The notes under the pieces were generated by a model. That model was given only the letters and a program-made list of their open reading frames with translations. It made no database searches and was not told the origin of the DNA. A program made the position numbers and the translations under genes. DNA of 34,769 bases, from contig JANYDK010000075.1 in assembly GCA_025363655.1 (NCBI GenBank), forward strand, positions 1-34,769. The letters are read 5' to 3'. The stretch comes from Deltaproteobacteria bacterium (GTDB taxonomy: Bacteria > Myxococcota_A > Polyangia > Polyangiales > JADJMO01). The first letter of the stretch is position 1. Each line of letters begins with the position of its first letter. Shown here one piece after another: positions 3,065 through 15,439 of the stretch.

Positions 3065-4060
3065 TCAGCCGCCGACGTCGATGCGGCCGAAGAAGCCTCC
3101 CGAGACCCACTCGCGGAACCAGGCCATCACGTTGCGGCTCGCTTCTTCGACCGAGGCCTCGTCGGACTCGTCCGTTTCGATCTTGCCGAGGGCCTCGCCC
3201 AAGGTCGCGCCGGCGAAGAGGGCCTCGAGGACGCGCGCCATCGCCGGCGTCAAATCCATGCGCCACAAGGTCCAACCGTGACGATAGACGGCAGTGACCG
3301 ACGGCTCCGGCGAAGGAATCGTCGGCGACTTGTCGTGACGAAACGCTTGAAAAAATGCGTTCACGGGGTGCGTGAAGCGAAGGAGTCGCAAGGTGTCGGC
3401 CTTGGGGAGCCGCGCTCCGGCCCACTGCGTCGGGGGGACGGCTTGCAGCGCTTCGAGCGAGAGCGTCGGCGCAGCGGCGGCGTGAAGCACTTCGACGAGG
3501 GCCCACTCGAGTCTCGCCAAGTCGTGGGCAAAGCTCGTCGAGAAGGCCTCGGTGACGTACTCGTCCCGCACGAAGCTCGCCAGGTGCTGCCCGTAGCCGT
3601 TGAGGCTCGGATGTCGCGAAGGGTGACGCACGATGTACGCGCCGGCGAGCGCATCGAAGGCGTCTTCGCCGATGGCGTAGTTTAGCCCCGGATAGTCGTC
3701 GATGAGGCACTCGACGAGCCTCGCGCGATACGCGTAGTGATAGACGCCGAGTCGTTCGCGCGCCGAGAGCTGCGGGCCGCGCGTGAGCACGCGCTCGACG
3801 GGCCATTCGGCCATTGCCGAGCCGTCGTCGAGGCTCGCGGGGAACGTCACCACCGCGGCGAACCACTCTTGCAGCGAACGAAGTGGCGCGGAGACGGCGG
3901 GCAGCGTTTCGGCGCCGGCGATGGCGCTGGTGTCGACGTCGACATGCGCGCGTTCGGCTCGTTCGCGCATCGGCGTCGCGCTCGCACGCTCGTGGAGGAG
4001 CTCTTCCTGTGCGCCGCCGACGTCGGGGGCCGGCTTGCGATCGAGCCTCGCCTCGCTCAC
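3065..4060 (-). CDS. bufC: DUF2063 (BufC/HvfC-type) MNIO partner protein
   Basis: In MNIO RiPP systems, DUF2063 proteins act as partner or recognition subunits of the DUF692 enzyme. This 331-residue protein shows the family's N-terminal helical domain from about residue 60: L-R-S-L-Q-E-W-F-A, then R-L-G-V-Y-H-Y-A-Y-R-x-R-L, then D-Y-P-G-L, and H-P-S-R-H-P-S-L-N. The first 55 residues form a poorly conserved-looking extension. The GTG start overlaps the bufB stop by four bases (GTGA), which indicates translational coupling and supports this start. The gene order precursor, DUF692, DUF2063 matches known bufferin clusters. The assignment as BufC comes from family and context, not from an experiment. 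Confidence 0.88.
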   Translation of the reverse strand: MSEARLDRKPAPDVGGAQEELLHERASATPMRERAERAHVDVDTSAIAGAETLPAVSAPLRSLQEWFAAVVTFPASLDDGSAMAEWPVERVLTRGPQLSARERLGVYHYAYRARLVECLIDDYPGLNYAIGEDAFDALAGAYIVRHPSRHPSLNGYGQHLASFVRDEYVTEAFSTSFAHDLARLEWALVEVLHAAAAPTLSLEALQAVPPTQWAGARLPKADTLRLLRFTHPVNAFFQAFRHDKSPTIPSPEPSVTAVYRHGWTLWRMDLTPAMARVLEALFAGATLGEALGKIETDESDEASVEEASRNVMAWFREWVSGGFFGRIDVGG

Positions 4061-4923
4061 GACGTCACCTCGGGCGTCTTGGCCTGCTCGCCGAGCTCGC
4101 CGAGATCGGCGACGAACTCACGCGCCCGCAGCGCCTCCGCCCACGTCTCCTCGAAGGTCGGAATCTCCGCGTCCCACTCGAGCAAGATGGACGATTTCGC
4201 CTGCGCGCGCGCCTTGCCGAGGAGACGCCAGACGTCGTCGATCACCGGACCGATGTGCGTGTCGACCGCGTGCGTACCGTTGTTGGTGTGCCCGGCGACG
4301 TGGAACTGGACCACCCGATCCCAGGGAATTCCAGCGAGATAGTCGTTCGGATCGAAGCCGTGGTTGAACGACGAGACGAAGACGTTGTTGACGTCGAGGA
4401 GGATGCCGCAGTCGGCCTCCTTCGCCAGCCGCCCGAGGAACTCCCACTCGGTCATCGTCGAGGCCCGGAACTCGACGTAGGTCGAGGGGTTCTCGAGCGC
4501 GATCGGCCCGTCGAGAAAATCTTGCACTTCGCGAACGCGCTGGACGACGTGTGCCAGTGACTCCTCGGTGTAGGGCATCGGGAGGAGGTCGTGCGTGTTC
4601 TTCCCTGCGACGCCCGTCCAACACAGATGGTCCGAGACCCACCGCGCCTGCACGCGATCACGCAGCTTCTTCAGCTCGCCGAGGTAGTCGCGATCGAGCG
4701 GATCGGTCCCGCCGATAGACATCGAGACGCCGTGCATCACCAGCGGATACTGCTCGGCGATTCGATCGAGGTAATAGAGCGGCTTCCCCGCCGTGTGCAT
4801 GTAGTTCTCGCTGATGATCTCGAACCAGCCCACAGGGGGCGAGTGCTCGAGGATCGAGCGATAGTGCACCGTGCGTAGCCCAAGGCCGACGCCGAGATCG
4901 GGAAGCTTCCAGCGATTGATCAT
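4057..4923 (-). CDS. bufB: MNIO family (DUF692) RiPP-modifying oxidase, BufB-like
   Basis: DUF692 proteins are TIM-barrel multinuclear non-heme iron enzymes that use oxygen to convert precursor Cys residues, for example to thiooxazole or oxazolone-type groups in bufferins and methanobactins. This 288-residue protein has the expected length. The metal-ligand motifs of the family are visible: M-H64-G-V-S, S-D98-H99-L-C-W, L-E144-N-P-S, L-D177-V-N179-N, F-H208-V-A-G-H212, D221-x-H223 and L-E249-W-D251. Nothing appears to be missing. It lies 128 nt downstream of the Cys-rich precursor and overlaps bufC by four bases. The product it makes from this precursor is inferred. Confidence 0.93.
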   Translation of the reverse strand: MINRWKLPDLGVGLGLRTVHYRSILEHSPPVGWFEIISENYMHTAGKPLYYLDRIAEQYPLVMHGVSMSIGGTDPLDRDYLGELKKLRDRVQARWVSDHLCWTGVAGKNTHDLLPMPYTEESLAHVVQRVREVQDFLDGPIALENPSTYVEFRASTMTEWEFLGRLAKEADCGILLDVNNVFVSSFNHGFDPNDYLAGIPWDRVVQFHVAGHTNNGTHAVDTHIGPVIDDVWRLLGKARAQAKSSILLEWDAEIPTFEETWAEALRAREFVADLGELGEQAKTPEVTS

Positions 4924-5051
4924 TTTTTGGGCGCCTCACGCACGACGACCGCCGCCGGTGTCTCCACCGAGGACGGTCGCCGAACGATTCGAATCCTCCG
5001 ACGTCTCTCGCGCCACCGACGGAAGCCGGCGTCAGAGTCGTCGGGGTGAAA

Positions 5052-5339
5052 TCAGGTGGACTTGCAGCCGCCCTGGCCCTTGCACTCGTTCTGGCCCTTG
5101 CAGGCGTTCTTGCCTTCGACCTTGCAGCCGCCCTGACCCTTGCAGGTGTTCTGGCCCTTGCAAGCGTGCTTGCCCGCGGCGGCCGGATCGGCGGCAGCAG
5201 CCGAGCCCGCAGCGGCGGCCGGATCGGTCCCGGCGGTCGGCGCATCGGGCGCCTTGGGGGTGCTGCTTCCACACGCAGCAGTGGCGCCGACGAGGATGCC
5301 CGTAACCGCAGCAGCGATGAGCGTGTCCGTGATCTTCAT
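5052..5339 (-). CDS. bufA: bufferin-type precursor peptide with duplicated Cys core
   Basis: This 95-residue protein is the likely substrate of the MNIO enzyme downstream. Residues 1-23 form an export signal ending in A-T-A-A-C23, so it may be a lipoprotein, though the lipobox is imperfect. An Ala/Pro/Asp-rich linker follows (24-58). The core has six Cys at 60, 66, 72, 80, 86 and 92, arranged as two near-identical copies of A-C-K-G-Q-N-x-C-K-G-Q-G-G-C-K separated by V-E-G-K-N. The CKGQ-type Cys pattern resembles known bufferin A2-type precursors, whose modified Cys bind copper. A good ribosome site (AGGGAGA, 5347-5353 complement) precedes the ATG. Transition-metal binding is inferred from the family. 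Confidence 0.9.
   Translation of the reverse strand: MKITDTLIAAAVTGILVGATAACGSSTPKAPDAPTAGTDPAAAAGSAAAADPAAAGKHACKGQNTCKGQGGCKVEGKNACKGQNECKGQGGCKST
5061..5165 (-). repeat. 60-nt duplication inside the bufferin core
   Basis: Codons 59-73 and 79-93 of the precursor repeat almost exactly, differing only at Thr65/Glu85. The 60-nt spacing keeps the frame and doubles the number of Cys triads. Confidence 0.85.
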
Positions 5340-11587: not shown

Positions 11588-13063
11588 CTACTGGACCTTG
11601 GCGAGGGCCGCGACGATCTCGTCGGTGTCGACCTTCTTACGGAAAATCTGCGCCGGGTTCCCCTTCGAGTCGAGGATGACGACCGCCGGGAGCCCCTGCA
11701 CCTCGTATTTCTCGGAATACGACGTGAACTTGGGCGCGGCCACGTCGCTGCCGTCGATGCGGAGGGCGAGGAAGCGGCTGGCGGCCTTCCAGAAGCGCGG
11801 ATCGCCGAAGGTGTCCTTCTCCATCTCGTGGCAGGCGGTGCACCAGTCGGCGCCGAAGTCGATGATCACCGGACGACCTTCTTTGAGGGCAGTCGCGAGG
11901 ATTTTCTCGTCGTCTTCGGACCAGATGACCGGGTGCGGCGTGCCGTCGTCGTTCTTCTTGCCGAGGCCGCTCGCGACTTGCTCTTGCACGCCGGCCGACA
12001 GCGCGGCGACGTAGTGGCTCGGTTCGAGCTGCAACCAGGAGATGAGCGCGAAGCCGCCGTACGTCGCGAGGACGATTCCGAGCCCTTTGCGCACGCGCTC
12101 GACGTTGGTGCCGGAGAACGAGAGGTGCACCGCGCCGATCGCGAGCCCGACGAAGAGGCAGCCGAGCGCGATGGCGAGGAACGTGTTGCCGCGGAAGGCG
12201 GCCGTCTTGAGGATGGCGATGCCGTTCTTCGCGTAGAAGAAGGCGAGCACGAGGAGGACGACGCCGAAGAAGCTCTTCACGTGCTGCATCCACGCGCCCG
12301 GCTTGGGCAGACGTGCAGCGAAGGTGCCGACGAAGAAGAACGGCGTGCCGAGCCCGATCGAGAAGAGGAACACGCTCGCGGTGCCGACCGCGGTGCCGCT
12401 CTGCGAGAACGAGCCGAGAATGCTGGCGAACGGCGCGGTGGTGCAGGGCGACGCGATGAGCCCCGAGACGAGCCCCATGAGGAACGCGCCCTTGAAACCG
12501 ACGCCGCCGACGTTGGCGAGCTTGTTCTGAATCGAGGCCGGGAGGTTGAGCTCGAAGGCGCCGAACATCGACGCCGCCATCACCGCGAAGAGACCGGCGA
12601 GGCCGATGGTGACGTAAGGGCTGCTGAGCGCGCGACCCCACACCGAGTTGGTCATGGCCACGATCATGCCGAGCGGCGTGTAGAGCGCGGCGATGCCGAG
12701 GACGAAGGCGGCCGAGAGCCCCGCCGACTCTTTGCGCGACTTCGCCTGCTTGGCGCCGAAGACCGAGACCGTGATGCCGATCATCGGATAGACGCAAGGG
12801 GTCGCACACGCTGCGAGACCCGCGAGGTAGGCAGCGCCGAACGCGACCAGTGCGCCACCGCTACGGAGCGCGCGCGAGAACATGTCGCCGCCTTGATCGG
12901 CTGCGGGAGGTGCGCTGGCCGCGAGGGCAGGGTGCGTGAACGCGAGCACCACGAGCGCCGCGCCGAGCGCGACGAGCCACGCGTGAGACGTTCGAGAACG
13001 CGACTTCCGAGCGTGCGACGTTCGACGGCCTGAGGCGCGAGGGAGGGTGTCGTTCCAGCTCAT
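11588..13063 (-). CDS. dsbD: DsbD-like thiol:disulfide transporter with C-terminal thioredoxin domain
   Basis: DsbD moves electrons from cytoplasmic thioredoxin across the membrane to reduce periplasmic or exported thiols. This 491-residue version has a signal-like N-terminus (about residues 28-50), then the CcdA-type membrane domain with C86-A-T-P-C90 and I-A-S-P-C207-T-T-A-P, the redox Cys of the family, about eight membrane helices, and a C-terminal thioredoxin domain with D-W-C408-T-A-C411-H-E and a cis-Pro motif G-L-P-A-V. The N-terminal immunoglobulin-like alpha domain of E. coli DsbD is absent, as in shorter family members. It lies 99 nt downstream of the radical SAM gene on the same strand. 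Confidence 0.88.
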   Translation of the reverse strand: MSWNDTLPRASGRRTSHARKSRSRTSHAWLVALGAALVVLAFTHPALAASAPPAADQGGDMFSRALRSGGALVAFGAAYLAGLAACATPCVYPMIGITVSVFGAKQAKSRKESAGLSAAFVLGIAALYTPLGMIVAMTNSVWGRALSSPYVTIGLAGLFAVMAASMFGAFELNLPASIQNKLANVGGVGFKGAFLMGLVSGLIASPCTTAPFASILGSFSQSGTAVGTASVFLFSIGLGTPFFFVGTFAARLPKPGAWMQHVKSFFGVVLLVLAFFYAKNGIAILKTAAFRGNTFLAIALGCLFVGLAIGAVHLSFSGTNVERVRKGLGIVLATYGGFALISWLQLEPSHYVAALSAGVQEQVASGLGKKNDDGTPHPVIWSEDDEKILATALKEGRPVIIDFGADWCTACHEMEKDTFGDPRFWKAASRFLALRIDGSDVAAPKFTSYSEKYEVQGLPAVVILDSKGNPAQIFRKKVDTDEIVAALAKVQ

Positions 13064-13162: not shown

Positions 13163-14401
13163 TTACATCACCCGCAATCTTTTCTTCGCGCTCGTTTTCC
13201 CGACTTTCCCGACCGTGATCGCCGCGAGCGGCACCGGCGGCGGCGCGGGCTCGACCACGAGATCGAAGCGACCGTGATCGAACGGTAAGCCCGGCGCGGC
13301 CTCGGCTAGGACCAGCCGCTCGCGTAGACCCTGCTTGTCGTGCTCGAGGGCGCGGTGATGACAGTAGGGATTGTTCCCCCGTCGTCCCATGAGCGTGTGT
13401 CCGGTCCACGTGCAGCCGGCGCGACAGACCTCGGCGTAGTAACAAGAACGACAGAAGCCCCACAGCTCGTCGATCTCGCCTTGCACGCGATCGCGCGCGA
13501 AGCGCAGCTCACGCGTCTCTTCCCAGATGCGTTGGATGCTCAGGTCACGCACGTGACCGCCGGTGTACGAGGCCGTCGGCAGCGAGGGGCAGCCCTTGAT
13601 CGCGCCGTCGGACTCGATGCCGAGCACGTATTTTCCCGCCCCGCAGCCGCTGGTGTGCGCACCGTCGACGGCGCCGCGCTGCAGGTCGGCCTCGTGGGGA
13701 CCGAAGTAACCGACGTTGTTCCCTGGCCAGAGGCGAATGCCGAGCGAGCGCGCGCGCTGCGAGAGCTCGGCGATCTTCGGCATCACCTCGAGCAAATCGT
13801 ACGGCTGGAGAAGCCATTCCGGACGATCGGCGGCGCGCCCGATCGGACCGGTGAGCTGCACCTGCCACGCGCGGGCACCTTCGGCGGCGATCAGATCGAG
13901 CACCGCGTCGAGGTCGGGAAACGAGAGCCGATTGATCTGCGTGTTGACCGACGTGTAGACACCAGCGTCGCGCAAATGGCCGAGCGCCGCGCGTGCCGCC
14001 GCGAAGCTGCCGACGACGTTGCGCTGCCTGTCGTGCGCCGCGGCCATCCCGTCGATCGACACCGAGATCGCATCGATGCCAGCTTCGGCCATCGCGCGCG
14101 CCTTCTCGGCGTCGAGCGAACGACCGCCGGTGGTCATCGTGCACGACATCCCCGCGGCCTTGATCGCGCGCGCGATCGTCGACCAATCGGCGCGCAGATA
14201 GGCCTCGCCGCCGATGATGCTGATCTCGCCGACGCCCATCTCGCCGAGCTGACGAACGACGTCGAGCGCCTCCTCGGTGCTCAGCTCGTCGCCGCGCGCC
14301 TTGCCTGCACGCGAGCCACAGTGGCCGCACGACAAATCACAACGGAGCGTGATTTCCCAGACGACGTACGCGAGGCCGTCGGGCGCGCGACGGTTGGCCA
14401 T
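13163..14401 (-). CDS. radical SAM/SPASM peptide maturase candidate
   Basis: This 412-residue enzyme binds a [4Fe-4S] cluster through C21-D-L-S-C25-G-H-C28 (the CxxxCxxC motif) and uses S-adenosylmethionine for radical chemistry. G-G-E-A-Y-L matches the SAM-contacting GGE motif. A C-terminal SPASM domain is complete: G-C-G-A-G-K...G-x4-C-P, then C-R-S-C-x5-C-R-A-G-C, and a final N-P-Y-C, enough for two auxiliary clusters. Such enzymes commonly modify ribosomal peptides. The start at Met 14401 lies 4 nt after the stop of the upstream P-x-Y-G-x-P protein, which is the best substrate candidate; an ATG 48 nt further upstream would overlap that gene and give a basic, unlikely extension. I cannot name a specific subfamily. 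Confidence 0.9.
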   Translation of the reverse strand: MANRRAPDGLAYVVWEITLRCDLSCGHCGSRAGKARGDELSTEEALDVVRQLGEMGVGEISIIGGEAYLRADWSTIARAIKAAGMSCTMTTGGRSLDAEKARAMAEAGIDAISVSIDGMAAAHDRQRNVVGSFAAARAALGHLRDAGVYTSVNTQINRLSFPDLDAVLDLIAAEGARAWQVQLTGPIGRAADRPEWLLQPYDLLEVMPKIAELSQRARSLGIRLWPGNNVGYFGPHEADLQRGAVDGAHTSGCGAGKYVLGIESDGAIKGCPSLPTASYTGGHVRDLSIQRIWEETRELRFARDRVQGEIDELWGFCRSCYYAEVCRAGCTWTGHTLMGRRGNNPYCHHRALEHDKQGLRERLVLAEAAPGLPFDHGRFDLVVEPAPPPVPLAAITVGKVGKTSAKKRLRVM

Positions 14402-14405
14402 CGAG

Positions 14406-14837
14406 CTACTTCTTCGGCAGCGGCGCCTGTGGAGGCGGCGGCACGCCATACGCCGGAACGTTCACGTTCGTCGGAGGCGGCGGAGGGGGCGGCGGCGGAG
14501 GCGGCGGAGGGGGCGGCGGCGGAGGCGGCGGCACACCGTACGGCGGCACCGGTGCGGTCGGGTTCGTCGACGTCGTCTCGCTCGGCGTCGGCGTCGTGGT
14601 CGGTGACGTCGTCGTCGCAGTGGTCGTAGTGGTCGTCGGCGTGCCCGGCGCAGGCGTCTCGGTGCATCCTGCGAGGCTCGACATGCCGGCGACGATAGCC
14701 GCCGCGACGACGCCTGCCTGCGCCGCCGACGAAGACGAACGAGCAGCCCGCGGGCGCGGCGTGTCGCAGAACGGACAAGCATCGTCCGCGTCGAAGACGT
14801 GCCGTCGACAACCCGAGCAGATGGAGAGCGTGCGCAT
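14406..14837 (-). CDS. zinc-ribbon/lipobox/poly-Pro protein, putative radical SAM substrate 1
   Basis: This 143-residue protein has four parts: an N-terminal ribbon with C7-x2-C10...C21-P-F-C24, a hydrophobic segment (41-57) ending in L-A-G-C58 that resembles a lipobox, a Thr/Pro-rich linker, and a Pro-rich tail with P-P-Y100-G-V-P, an uninterrupted run of 20 Pro (103-122), and P-A-Y130-G-V-P, ending P-K-K. The neighbouring paralogue repeats the same layout. Placement 4 nt before the radical SAM/SPASM gene suggests it is modified by that enzyme, possibly at the Tyr-Gly motifs; this is inference. The start is chosen because the ribbon is conserved from Met1 in both paralogues. The upstream ribosome site is weak. 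Confidence 0.8.
   Translation of the reverse strand: MRTLSICSGCRRHVFDADDACPFCDTPRPRAARSSSSAAQAGVVAAAIVAGMSSLAGCTETPAPGTPTTTTTTATTTSPTTTPTPSETTSTNPTAPVPPYGVPPPPPPPPPPPPPPPPPPPPTNVNVPAYGVPPPPQAPLPKK
14472..14531 (-). repeat. poly-proline codon tract
   Basis: Twenty consecutive Pro codons written as GGN on the plus strand form a simple-sequence tract likely to vary in length. Long Pro runs stall ribosomes and need EF-P, so the tract could also slow synthesis before the last Tyr-Gly motif. Confidence 0.8.
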
Positions 14838-14914
14838 CGTCGGCTGATCGTAGAGCAAGGGCGCCACTTCGCCTACCCCGCCAGAAGAACGAGTGTTCCT
14901 CTCGGTCGGGGAGC

Positions 14915-15439
14915 TCAGAAGTGGCTCGGATCGCCCTTGAACGGCACGCCGTACGCAGGCTTCGGGATAGGCGGCGGCGGCGGCGGAGGAGGAGGAGGAG
15001 GCACGGGCGCTGGCTTGGCGTCGGCGGCCCCGACGTCTCTCGCGGCGTCGGTCGTCGCGTCGGAGGTGCCGGCGTCGGACGAGGGAGAGGCATCGGCCAT
15101 CGGCAACGGCATCGGCGGCGCGCCATACGCAGGAACGTTGTTCATTCCCAGGTCCGTCGGCCGCGGGCTCGGCGTCGGCGCGGGCTCGGTGGTGTCGCTC
15201 GGCTTGGTGGTGATGCGCGTCTCTTTCGGATCGAGCTTTTTCTCTTCTTGTCCGGGTTCGGGACAGGCCACGAGCCCCGTCATTCCCGCCACCAGCACCG
15301 CCGCGACGACGCCTCCGCGTGCGAGCGCGCTCGGTCCCGTGCTGGGCCCTCGCGTGCGCGACGCGCCGCAGAACGGGCACGCCGTCTCGTGCTCGAAGAT
15401 GTGTCGCCGACAGCCGGTGCAAATGTATAAAGAGCTCAT
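14915..15439 (-). CDS. zinc-ribbon/lipobox/poly-Pro protein, putative radical SAM substrate 2
   Basis: This 174-residue protein is a paralogue of the next gene downstream. It has the same Cys spacing (C7, C10, C21-P-F-C24), a matching hydrophobic segment G-V-V-A-A-V-L-V-A-G-M ending in L-V-A-C59, and two tail motifs, V-P-A-Y105-G-A-P and K-P-A-Y163-G-V-P, separated by an Asp/Ser-rich stretch and a shorter Pro run. The C-terminus is K-G-D-P-S-H-F. Conservation of ribbon, lipobox and P-x-Y-G-x-P while the linkers differ suggests these are the functional parts. A good ribosome site (AGGGGA) precedes the ATG. It probably heads the operon with the radical SAM gene. Confidence 0.8.
   Translation of the reverse strand: MSSLYICTGCRRHIFEHETACPFCGASRTRGPSTGPSALARGGVVAAVLVAGMTGLVACPEPGQEEKKLDPKETRITTKPSDTTEPAPTPSPRPTDLGMNNVPAYGAPPMPLPMADASPSSDAGTSDATTDAARDVGAADAKPAPVPPPPPPPPPPPIPKPAYGVPFKGDPSHF

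Follow-up and report, generated by a model that had tools for sequence, protein, structure and literature searches.

Which reaction is carried out by the radical SAM/SPASM enzyme of this locus, on which proteins, and by what means might they be recognized? The window (the whole 34,769-nucleotide stretch of DNA that was analyzed) encodes, consecutively and all on the minus strand, a protein A, a protein B and the enzyme, with 4 nt between the stop codon of B and the ATG of the enzyme gene. Protein A (174 aa, 14915..15439) and protein B (143 aa, 14406..14837), both predicted splicease substrates, have a common build, namely an N-terminal Cys4 ribbon with cysteines at residues 7, 10, 21, and 24 (15368..15421 in A, 14766..14819 in B), a hydrophobic segment followed by a lipobox, and two P-x-Y-G-x-P motifs. 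The lipobox cysteine is Cys59 in A (LVAC, 15263..15265) and Cys58 in B (LAGC, 14664..14666). The two predicted splice sites of A follow the pattern P-A-Y-G-[AV]-P and span residues 103-108 (P-A-Y-G-A-P, 15116..15133) and 161-166 (P-A-Y-G-V-P, 14942..14959), those of B follow P-[PA]-Y-G-V-P and span residues 98-103 (P-P-Y-G-V-P, 14529..14546) and 128-133 (P-A-Y-G-V-P, 14439..14456). A first-pass annotation of this DNA had described two adjacent paralogues with an identically spaced Cys4 ribbon, a lipobox-like cysteine and two such motifs each, with a complete radical SAM/SPASM gene 4 nt after the second; coordinates and residues confirm the former, Pfam and the coordinates the latter.

Directly downstream of the enzyme, a DsbD-like thiol:disulfide interchange protein with a thioredoxin domain is encoded (11588-13063, minus strand), which a comparison of neighborhoods did not find conserved beside other copies of the enzyme. 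Additionally, the window contains a second RiPP-type operon (3065-5339, minus strand), consisting of an MNIO bufferin maturase (4057-4923; NF050167 with 350 bits, above the cut-off), its HvfC/DUF2063 partner (3065-4060) and a precursor (5052-5339) with a lipobox-like GATAAC of its own and repeated CKGQ/GGC motifs, which is, by prediction, a lipoprotein bufferin.

Identity of the enzyme

The enzyme (412 aa, start MANRRAP, 13163..14401) matched the Pfam families Radical SAM (2e-22) and SPASM (8e-5). Its CxxxCxxC cluster motif (Cys21-Cys28, 14318..14341) and all seven of the seven cysteines expected in the SPASM region (residues 253, 271, 317, 320, 326, 330, and 347; 13361..13645) are invariant in the six full paralogues of the source genome, that is the window's own enzyme and five others that are 53-57% identical to it; one further enzyme fragment is located at a contig end. 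Among the NCBIfam models, TIGR04103 (nif11-class maturase 3) and TIGR03913 (GDL peptide-associated maturase) scored highest with 508 and 454 bits, respectively, the next model reaching 154. Both values stay below the respective cut-offs (the curated 725 bits for TIGR04103 and 592 bits for TIGR03913), which places the predicted splicease between the two models. Since the enzyme is nevertheless found in the same tree clade as members exceeding the TIGR04103 cut-off, it is regarded as belonging to a sister subfamily. Nif11-type and GDL-type enzymes each lie on one side of a branch of this tree, among the ribbon-type enzymes, and the root is unresolved.

TIGR04103 is taken by us to be equivalent to IPR026482 (PlpX). 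In Xaa-Tyr-Gly, PlpX cuts out tyramine and joins the chain again, which yields a ketoamide (PMC11002830); the mass lost is 135.0757 Da, and PIRPLYGLPI is the published splice tag (PMC10533398). This tag itself fits P-x-Y-G-x-P. Cyanobacterial relatives are about 55% identical to the window enzyme, those of Hydrococcus and Nostoc reaching 823 and 802 bits on TIGR04103 (cut-off 725). They adjoin Nif11-domain precursors (identified by Pfam) whose cores carry PMYGV/PLYGV, and this combination of Nif11 precursors and enzyme is the layout of spliceotide clusters. Based on the scores for the two models, this layout in the relatives and the position in the tree, the window enzyme is a probable splicease, predicted to represent a third subfamily for which no dedicated model exists; no PlpX sequence was compared and no biochemistry is available. 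A search of 390 cyanobacterial genomes for the PlpA tag IRPLYGLPI, with which PlpX itself was to be placed in the tree, yielded no match, and there is no solved splicease structure for comparison. For PlpY, the small partner protein with which the characterized enzyme works, the search of the source genome yielded noise-level matches only; PlpY-like proteins were present in two cyanobacterial controls. Since a characterized splicease family falls into the same clade as the enzyme, excision of tyramine with a loss of 135.08 Da per site is predicted, and the oxidation of Tyr side chains with a loss of 2 Da that had been proposed for this locus is probably wrong.

Two Myxococcota enzymes (L105 and L107, from genomes G064 and G120 of the same order) are nearer to the cyanobacterial type and have short precursors without ribbon, the one of L107 with a GG-type leader and PMYGVPLP, the one of L105 with VCYGCAPP. 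A PlpY-like gene was found for neither of them.

The ribbon proteins and the Tyr-Gly site

The source genome encodes 15 ribbon proteins, all 15 of which contain X-Y-G after the lipobox Cys. In an alignment of 13 of the ribbon proteins from this genome, the six invariant columns are the four ribbon cysteines, the Pro after the third of these and the lipobox Cys, and neither a Nif11 nor a nitrile-hydratase-like leader was detected in A or B with Pfam and NCBIfam. The collection was widened to the surroundings of 78 enzyme loci in public genomes and of 30 in the same order, with the presence of YG playing no part in the selection. The resulting set comprised 112 distinct proteins, those of the source genome included, and 110 of them had a usable mature part. 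YG was present in 107 of these 110 proteins beside homologous enzymes and never occurred before the lipobox Cys; as for the three exceptions, one is cut by the contig end and another has Y-A at the position of the site. Tyr was followed by Gly in 256 out of 286 cases, compared to 51 expected from composition-keeping shuffles, and no other dipeptide was as strongly enriched as YG (z = 35). The consensus of the site in these 110 proteins is [PA]-[LAPMVR]-Y-G-[AGL]-P-P. Between close homologues, YG was conserved at 81% and the rest of the mature part at 44%, the pairs not being independent of each other.

Lipoprotein signals of A and B contain n-region, hydrophobic segment and lipobox, with an n-region that is unusually long on account of the ribbon, and all X-Y-G sites lie downstream of the lipobox Cys. 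Of 153 homologues, 150 have A, G, or S at position -1 of the lipobox, which supports the earlier proposal of a surface-anchored substrate. The architecture of A and B fits a RiPP-modified core behind an SPII signal (DAG-RiPP), with both modification and lipidation being inferred. When neighborhoods were compared, no third gene was conserved beside enzyme and ribbon proteins, and no conserved protease, transporter or RRE was found near the enzyme.

Some members of the family deviate from the simple tail architecture. The lipobox Cys itself is the X of X-Y-G in L015 (source genome, C70), L053, L087, L095, L219, and L221, with LMAC-YGGPP and LAAC-YGVPP as examples, so that splicing would alter the very residue that is due for lipidation. 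Behind the site, L012 (source genome, C67) has an OmpA domain (6e-7) and L025 (source genome, C131) a weak match to TonB_C; these putative folded domains suggest functions in the envelope that go further than those of short tails.

Ribbon proteins are also encoded away from the enzyme, and their number per genome reaches 27. In 40 scattered loci that were fetched, all 43 ribbon proteins contained YG, with 110 sites compared to 15 expected. Among 145 genomes of the same order, the ribbon family was present in 70 of 84 enzyme-positive and in none of 61 enzyme-negative genomes (Fisher 1e-27, a value that overstates independence because the genomes are related). The 14 enzyme-positive genomes of the order without a ribbon protein at the threshold used include some that use other precursors. 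In a sample of 189 genomes of the phylum, which partly overlaps with that of the order, all 19 genomes with ribbon proteins were among the 59 enzyme-positive ones. The co-occurrence with this SPASM clade that the first-pass annotation had proposed as a check is met by these counts, and its view of Tyr-Gly as the modified site is strongly supported by the enrichment of YG, its position after the lipobox, its conservation and its co-occurrence with the enzyme. What does not hold is the picture of a two-gene locus, as the family is dispersed and most members do not adjoin an enzyme gene. Frequent homologues lacking a neighboring SPASM gene had been named as a refutation; they are indeed common away from the enzyme, but only in genomes that contain it. 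Enzyme and ribbon protein were also seen together in a metagenome-assembled genome labelled Planctomycetota (L030), nested among Myxococcota sequences, which points to mis-binning or transfer.

The ribbon as a putative docking module and alternative readings

Three GDL-type enzymes (L066, L071, and L074) possess a C-terminal ribbon of the form C-x2-C-x-RH-V...C-P-[FY]-C, to which the ribbon of A is homologous. The peptides encoded beside them are small, contain a PPYG site and have no ribbon, and the one in L071 was assigned to DUF1843 by Pfam. An HMM of the substrate ribbon matched the ribbon of the GDL-type enzymes with E-values of 1e-11 to 2e-9 and matched no other enzyme tested, those of the ribbon-lipoprotein type included; a profile comparison of the two ribbons is in agreement (97.7%). 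In the genomes of the GDL-type enzymes, the enzyme itself is the sole strong ribbon match. The window enzyme shows SPASM cysteines but no ribbon. A ribbon that belongs to the substrate in one clade but to the enzyme in the other is probably a docking module joining the two, as far as can be predicted without binding data. The earlier suggestion that the ribbon serves recognition gains support from this fusion as well as from the absence of ribbon proteins in enzyme-negative genomes. Few further GDL-type enzymes were found, none in Myxococcota and one in Acidobacteriota (the phylum of the GDL genome), and the evidence from fused ribbons consequently rests on three enzymes. Several zinc-ribbon models of Pfam matched the ribbon weakly (E about 0.01 to 1e-5), the ribbons of A and B being below the gathering scores. 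Since PlpY-like proteins are absent from the source genome, the ribbon may stand in for the PlpY partner. Furthermore, the conserved PPYG in the adjoining peptides makes it probable, again by inference, that TIGR03913 enzymes are spliceases as well and that DUF1843 is a substrate family.

PlpXY is able to splice a ten-residue tag without a leader (PMC10533398), and a membrane segment adjoins the ribbon in every case. It therefore remains a real, though less likely, possibility that the ribbon is an independent zinc/redox or membrane-insertion module and that the enzyme recognizes the X-Y-G tail alone. Against this stand the fusion of the ribbon to the enzyme in precisely that clade in which the substrates have none, and the absence of the ribbon family from enzyme-negative genomes. 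The fate of the tails can also be read differently. As they are short and disordered, and the cyanobacterial relatives are secreted RiPPs, they might be cut off and released as small secreted peptides rather than remain on anchored surface proteins. We regard this as improbable considering the conservation of the lipobox (150/153), the lack of an adjacent protease or transporter and the existence of members in which the site is followed by a folded domain such as OmpA.

With respect to the chemistry, SPASM enzymes perform many reactions, and both the score below the TIGR04103 cut-off and the missing PlpY partner leave room for another radical SAM reaction at Tyr-Gly with a small mass change, such as a Tyr cross-link, a cyclophane, a Cα thioether or a desaturation. 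We strongly doubt this, because tyramine excision at X-Y-G is the sole chemistry known in the clade, conservation of the Gly at +1 almost equals that of the Tyr although a reaction at the side chain would not depend on this Gly, and no recurrent cross-link partner residue is found around the site. Finally, the tails are compositionally biased and rich in Pro, and motif and neighborhood could in principle be a coincidence, with unrelated lipoproteins that happen to have low-complexity Pro/Gly-rich tails lying next to a radical SAM gene. This was rejected as virtually impossible in view of the YG counts (256 vs. 51 expected, 110 vs. 15 in the scattered proteins) and the co-occurrence (70/84 vs. 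0/61). Splicing of anchored, ribbon-bearing lipoproteins remains the preferred reading.

Proposed pathway and implications

It appears very likely to us that the window enzyme is a ribbon-guided splicease of the PlpX superfamily acting on lipoproteins before their export. Homology, motif, lipobox, co-occurrence and ribbon fusion were read from the sequences themselves; splicing, docking, topology and a protease-related role are inferred, without any biochemistry. According to this proposal, the enzyme would dock in the cytoplasm, before export, on the N-terminal Cys4 (probably Zn) ribbon of A, B and at least 13 other ribbon proteins of its own genome. There, it would excise tyramine from each X-Y-G Tyr downstream of the lipobox and rejoin the chain, leaving an α-keto-β-amino residue (ketoamide) derived from X and a change of about -135.08 Da per site. 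Sec would then export the protein, after which Lgt and LspA would attach the lipid to the lipobox Cys and take off the ribbon along with the hydrophobic segment. By virtue of this last step the leader would in effect be an extended lipoprotein signal peptide, so that a dedicated protease or transporter would not be needed. The final product is predicted to be a disordered, Pro-rich envelope lipoprotein with one to five electrophilic ketoamides.

The use considered most likely for such a product would be to trap or inhibit subtilisin/elastase-like proteases at the surface, and trypsin-like ones where X is Arg. Ketoamides of spliceotides are known protease inhibitors (PMC10373908, PMC11117315). 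In the ribbon proteins, the residue before the ketoamide (P1) is Leu, Ala, Pro, Met, Val, or Arg and P2 is Pro or Ala, a pattern that in our own inference suits subtilisin/elastase-like and some trypsin-like enzymes. Least certain of all is the idea that a surface brush of ketoamide sites shields the cell from proteases, whether its own or foreign; it is only tentative, and we would rather doubt than assume it, its basis being restricted to the published spliceotides and the P2/P1 pattern.

PlpX/PlpY of Pleurocapsa (TIGR04103/IPR026482; PMC11002830, PMC10533398) is similar with regard to the radical SAM/SPASM clade, the P-x-Y-G-x-P-like site and the several sites per substrate. In contrast, the window substrates carry a Cys4 ribbon and a lipobox where those of PlpX have a Nif11/nitrile-hydratase leader with GG cleavage, and the window system has no PlpY and acts on lipoproteins, many of them encoded far from the enzyme gene. 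GDL-motif maturases (TIGR03913, "rad_SAM_trio") with their DUF1843 peptides share sister enzymes, PPYG substrates and the Cys4 ribbon, but in their case it is the enzyme that contains the ribbon, and the small DUF1843 peptide lacks ribbon, membrane segment and lipobox. Known DAG-RiPP/MNIO lipoprotein hybrids likewise involve a RiPP-type enzyme that modifies a protein entering the lipoprotein (SPII) pathway, although with another enzyme class (MNIO) and another chemistry, and spliceases and ribbons are not mentioned there (PMC12636315).

Both the chemistry and the enzyme superfamily are already known. The splicease survey by Scott et al. from 2022 (Chem, doi 10.1016/j.chempr.2022.09.017) reportedly covers 27 characterized and 939 predicted systems. 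According to its title and to two accounts of it (PMC10373908, PMC10533398), splicing is common in nature and affects not only peptides but also proteins. The first-pass annotation's statement that no such system has been described has to be narrowed, given that spliceases and spliced proteins are published. Ribbon-lipoprotein substrates, their dispersal in trans and the move of the ribbon between enzyme and substrate are undescribed in the open literature searched, with the exception of the 2022 survey, which was outside the scope and may include some of them among its 939 predicted systems.

Whether backbone splicing in Myxococcota is a genome-wide modification of surface lipoproteins, in which a ribbon in front of the signal marks proteins encoded anywhere in the genome for a trans-acting splicease and has moved between enzyme and substrate, seems to us evenly balanced. 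If true, this would be a system dedicated to modifying proteins and not a natural-product cluster, and it would be the first in which the lipoprotein signal peptidase removes an N-terminal docking domain. Because one clade has the ribbon fused to its enzymes and another to its substrates, the question of recognition is directly testable. Hundreds of ready-made substrates would become available, along with a portable recognition domain useful for protein labelling; the published TyrEx method is said to require the PlpY partner and to fail at many insertion sites. The proposal would also offer a testable idea of how the surface of social and predatory bacteria is protected from proteases, and it would make β-amino-acid splicing, a rare natural-product reaction, a common surface-protein modification across a bacterial phylum.
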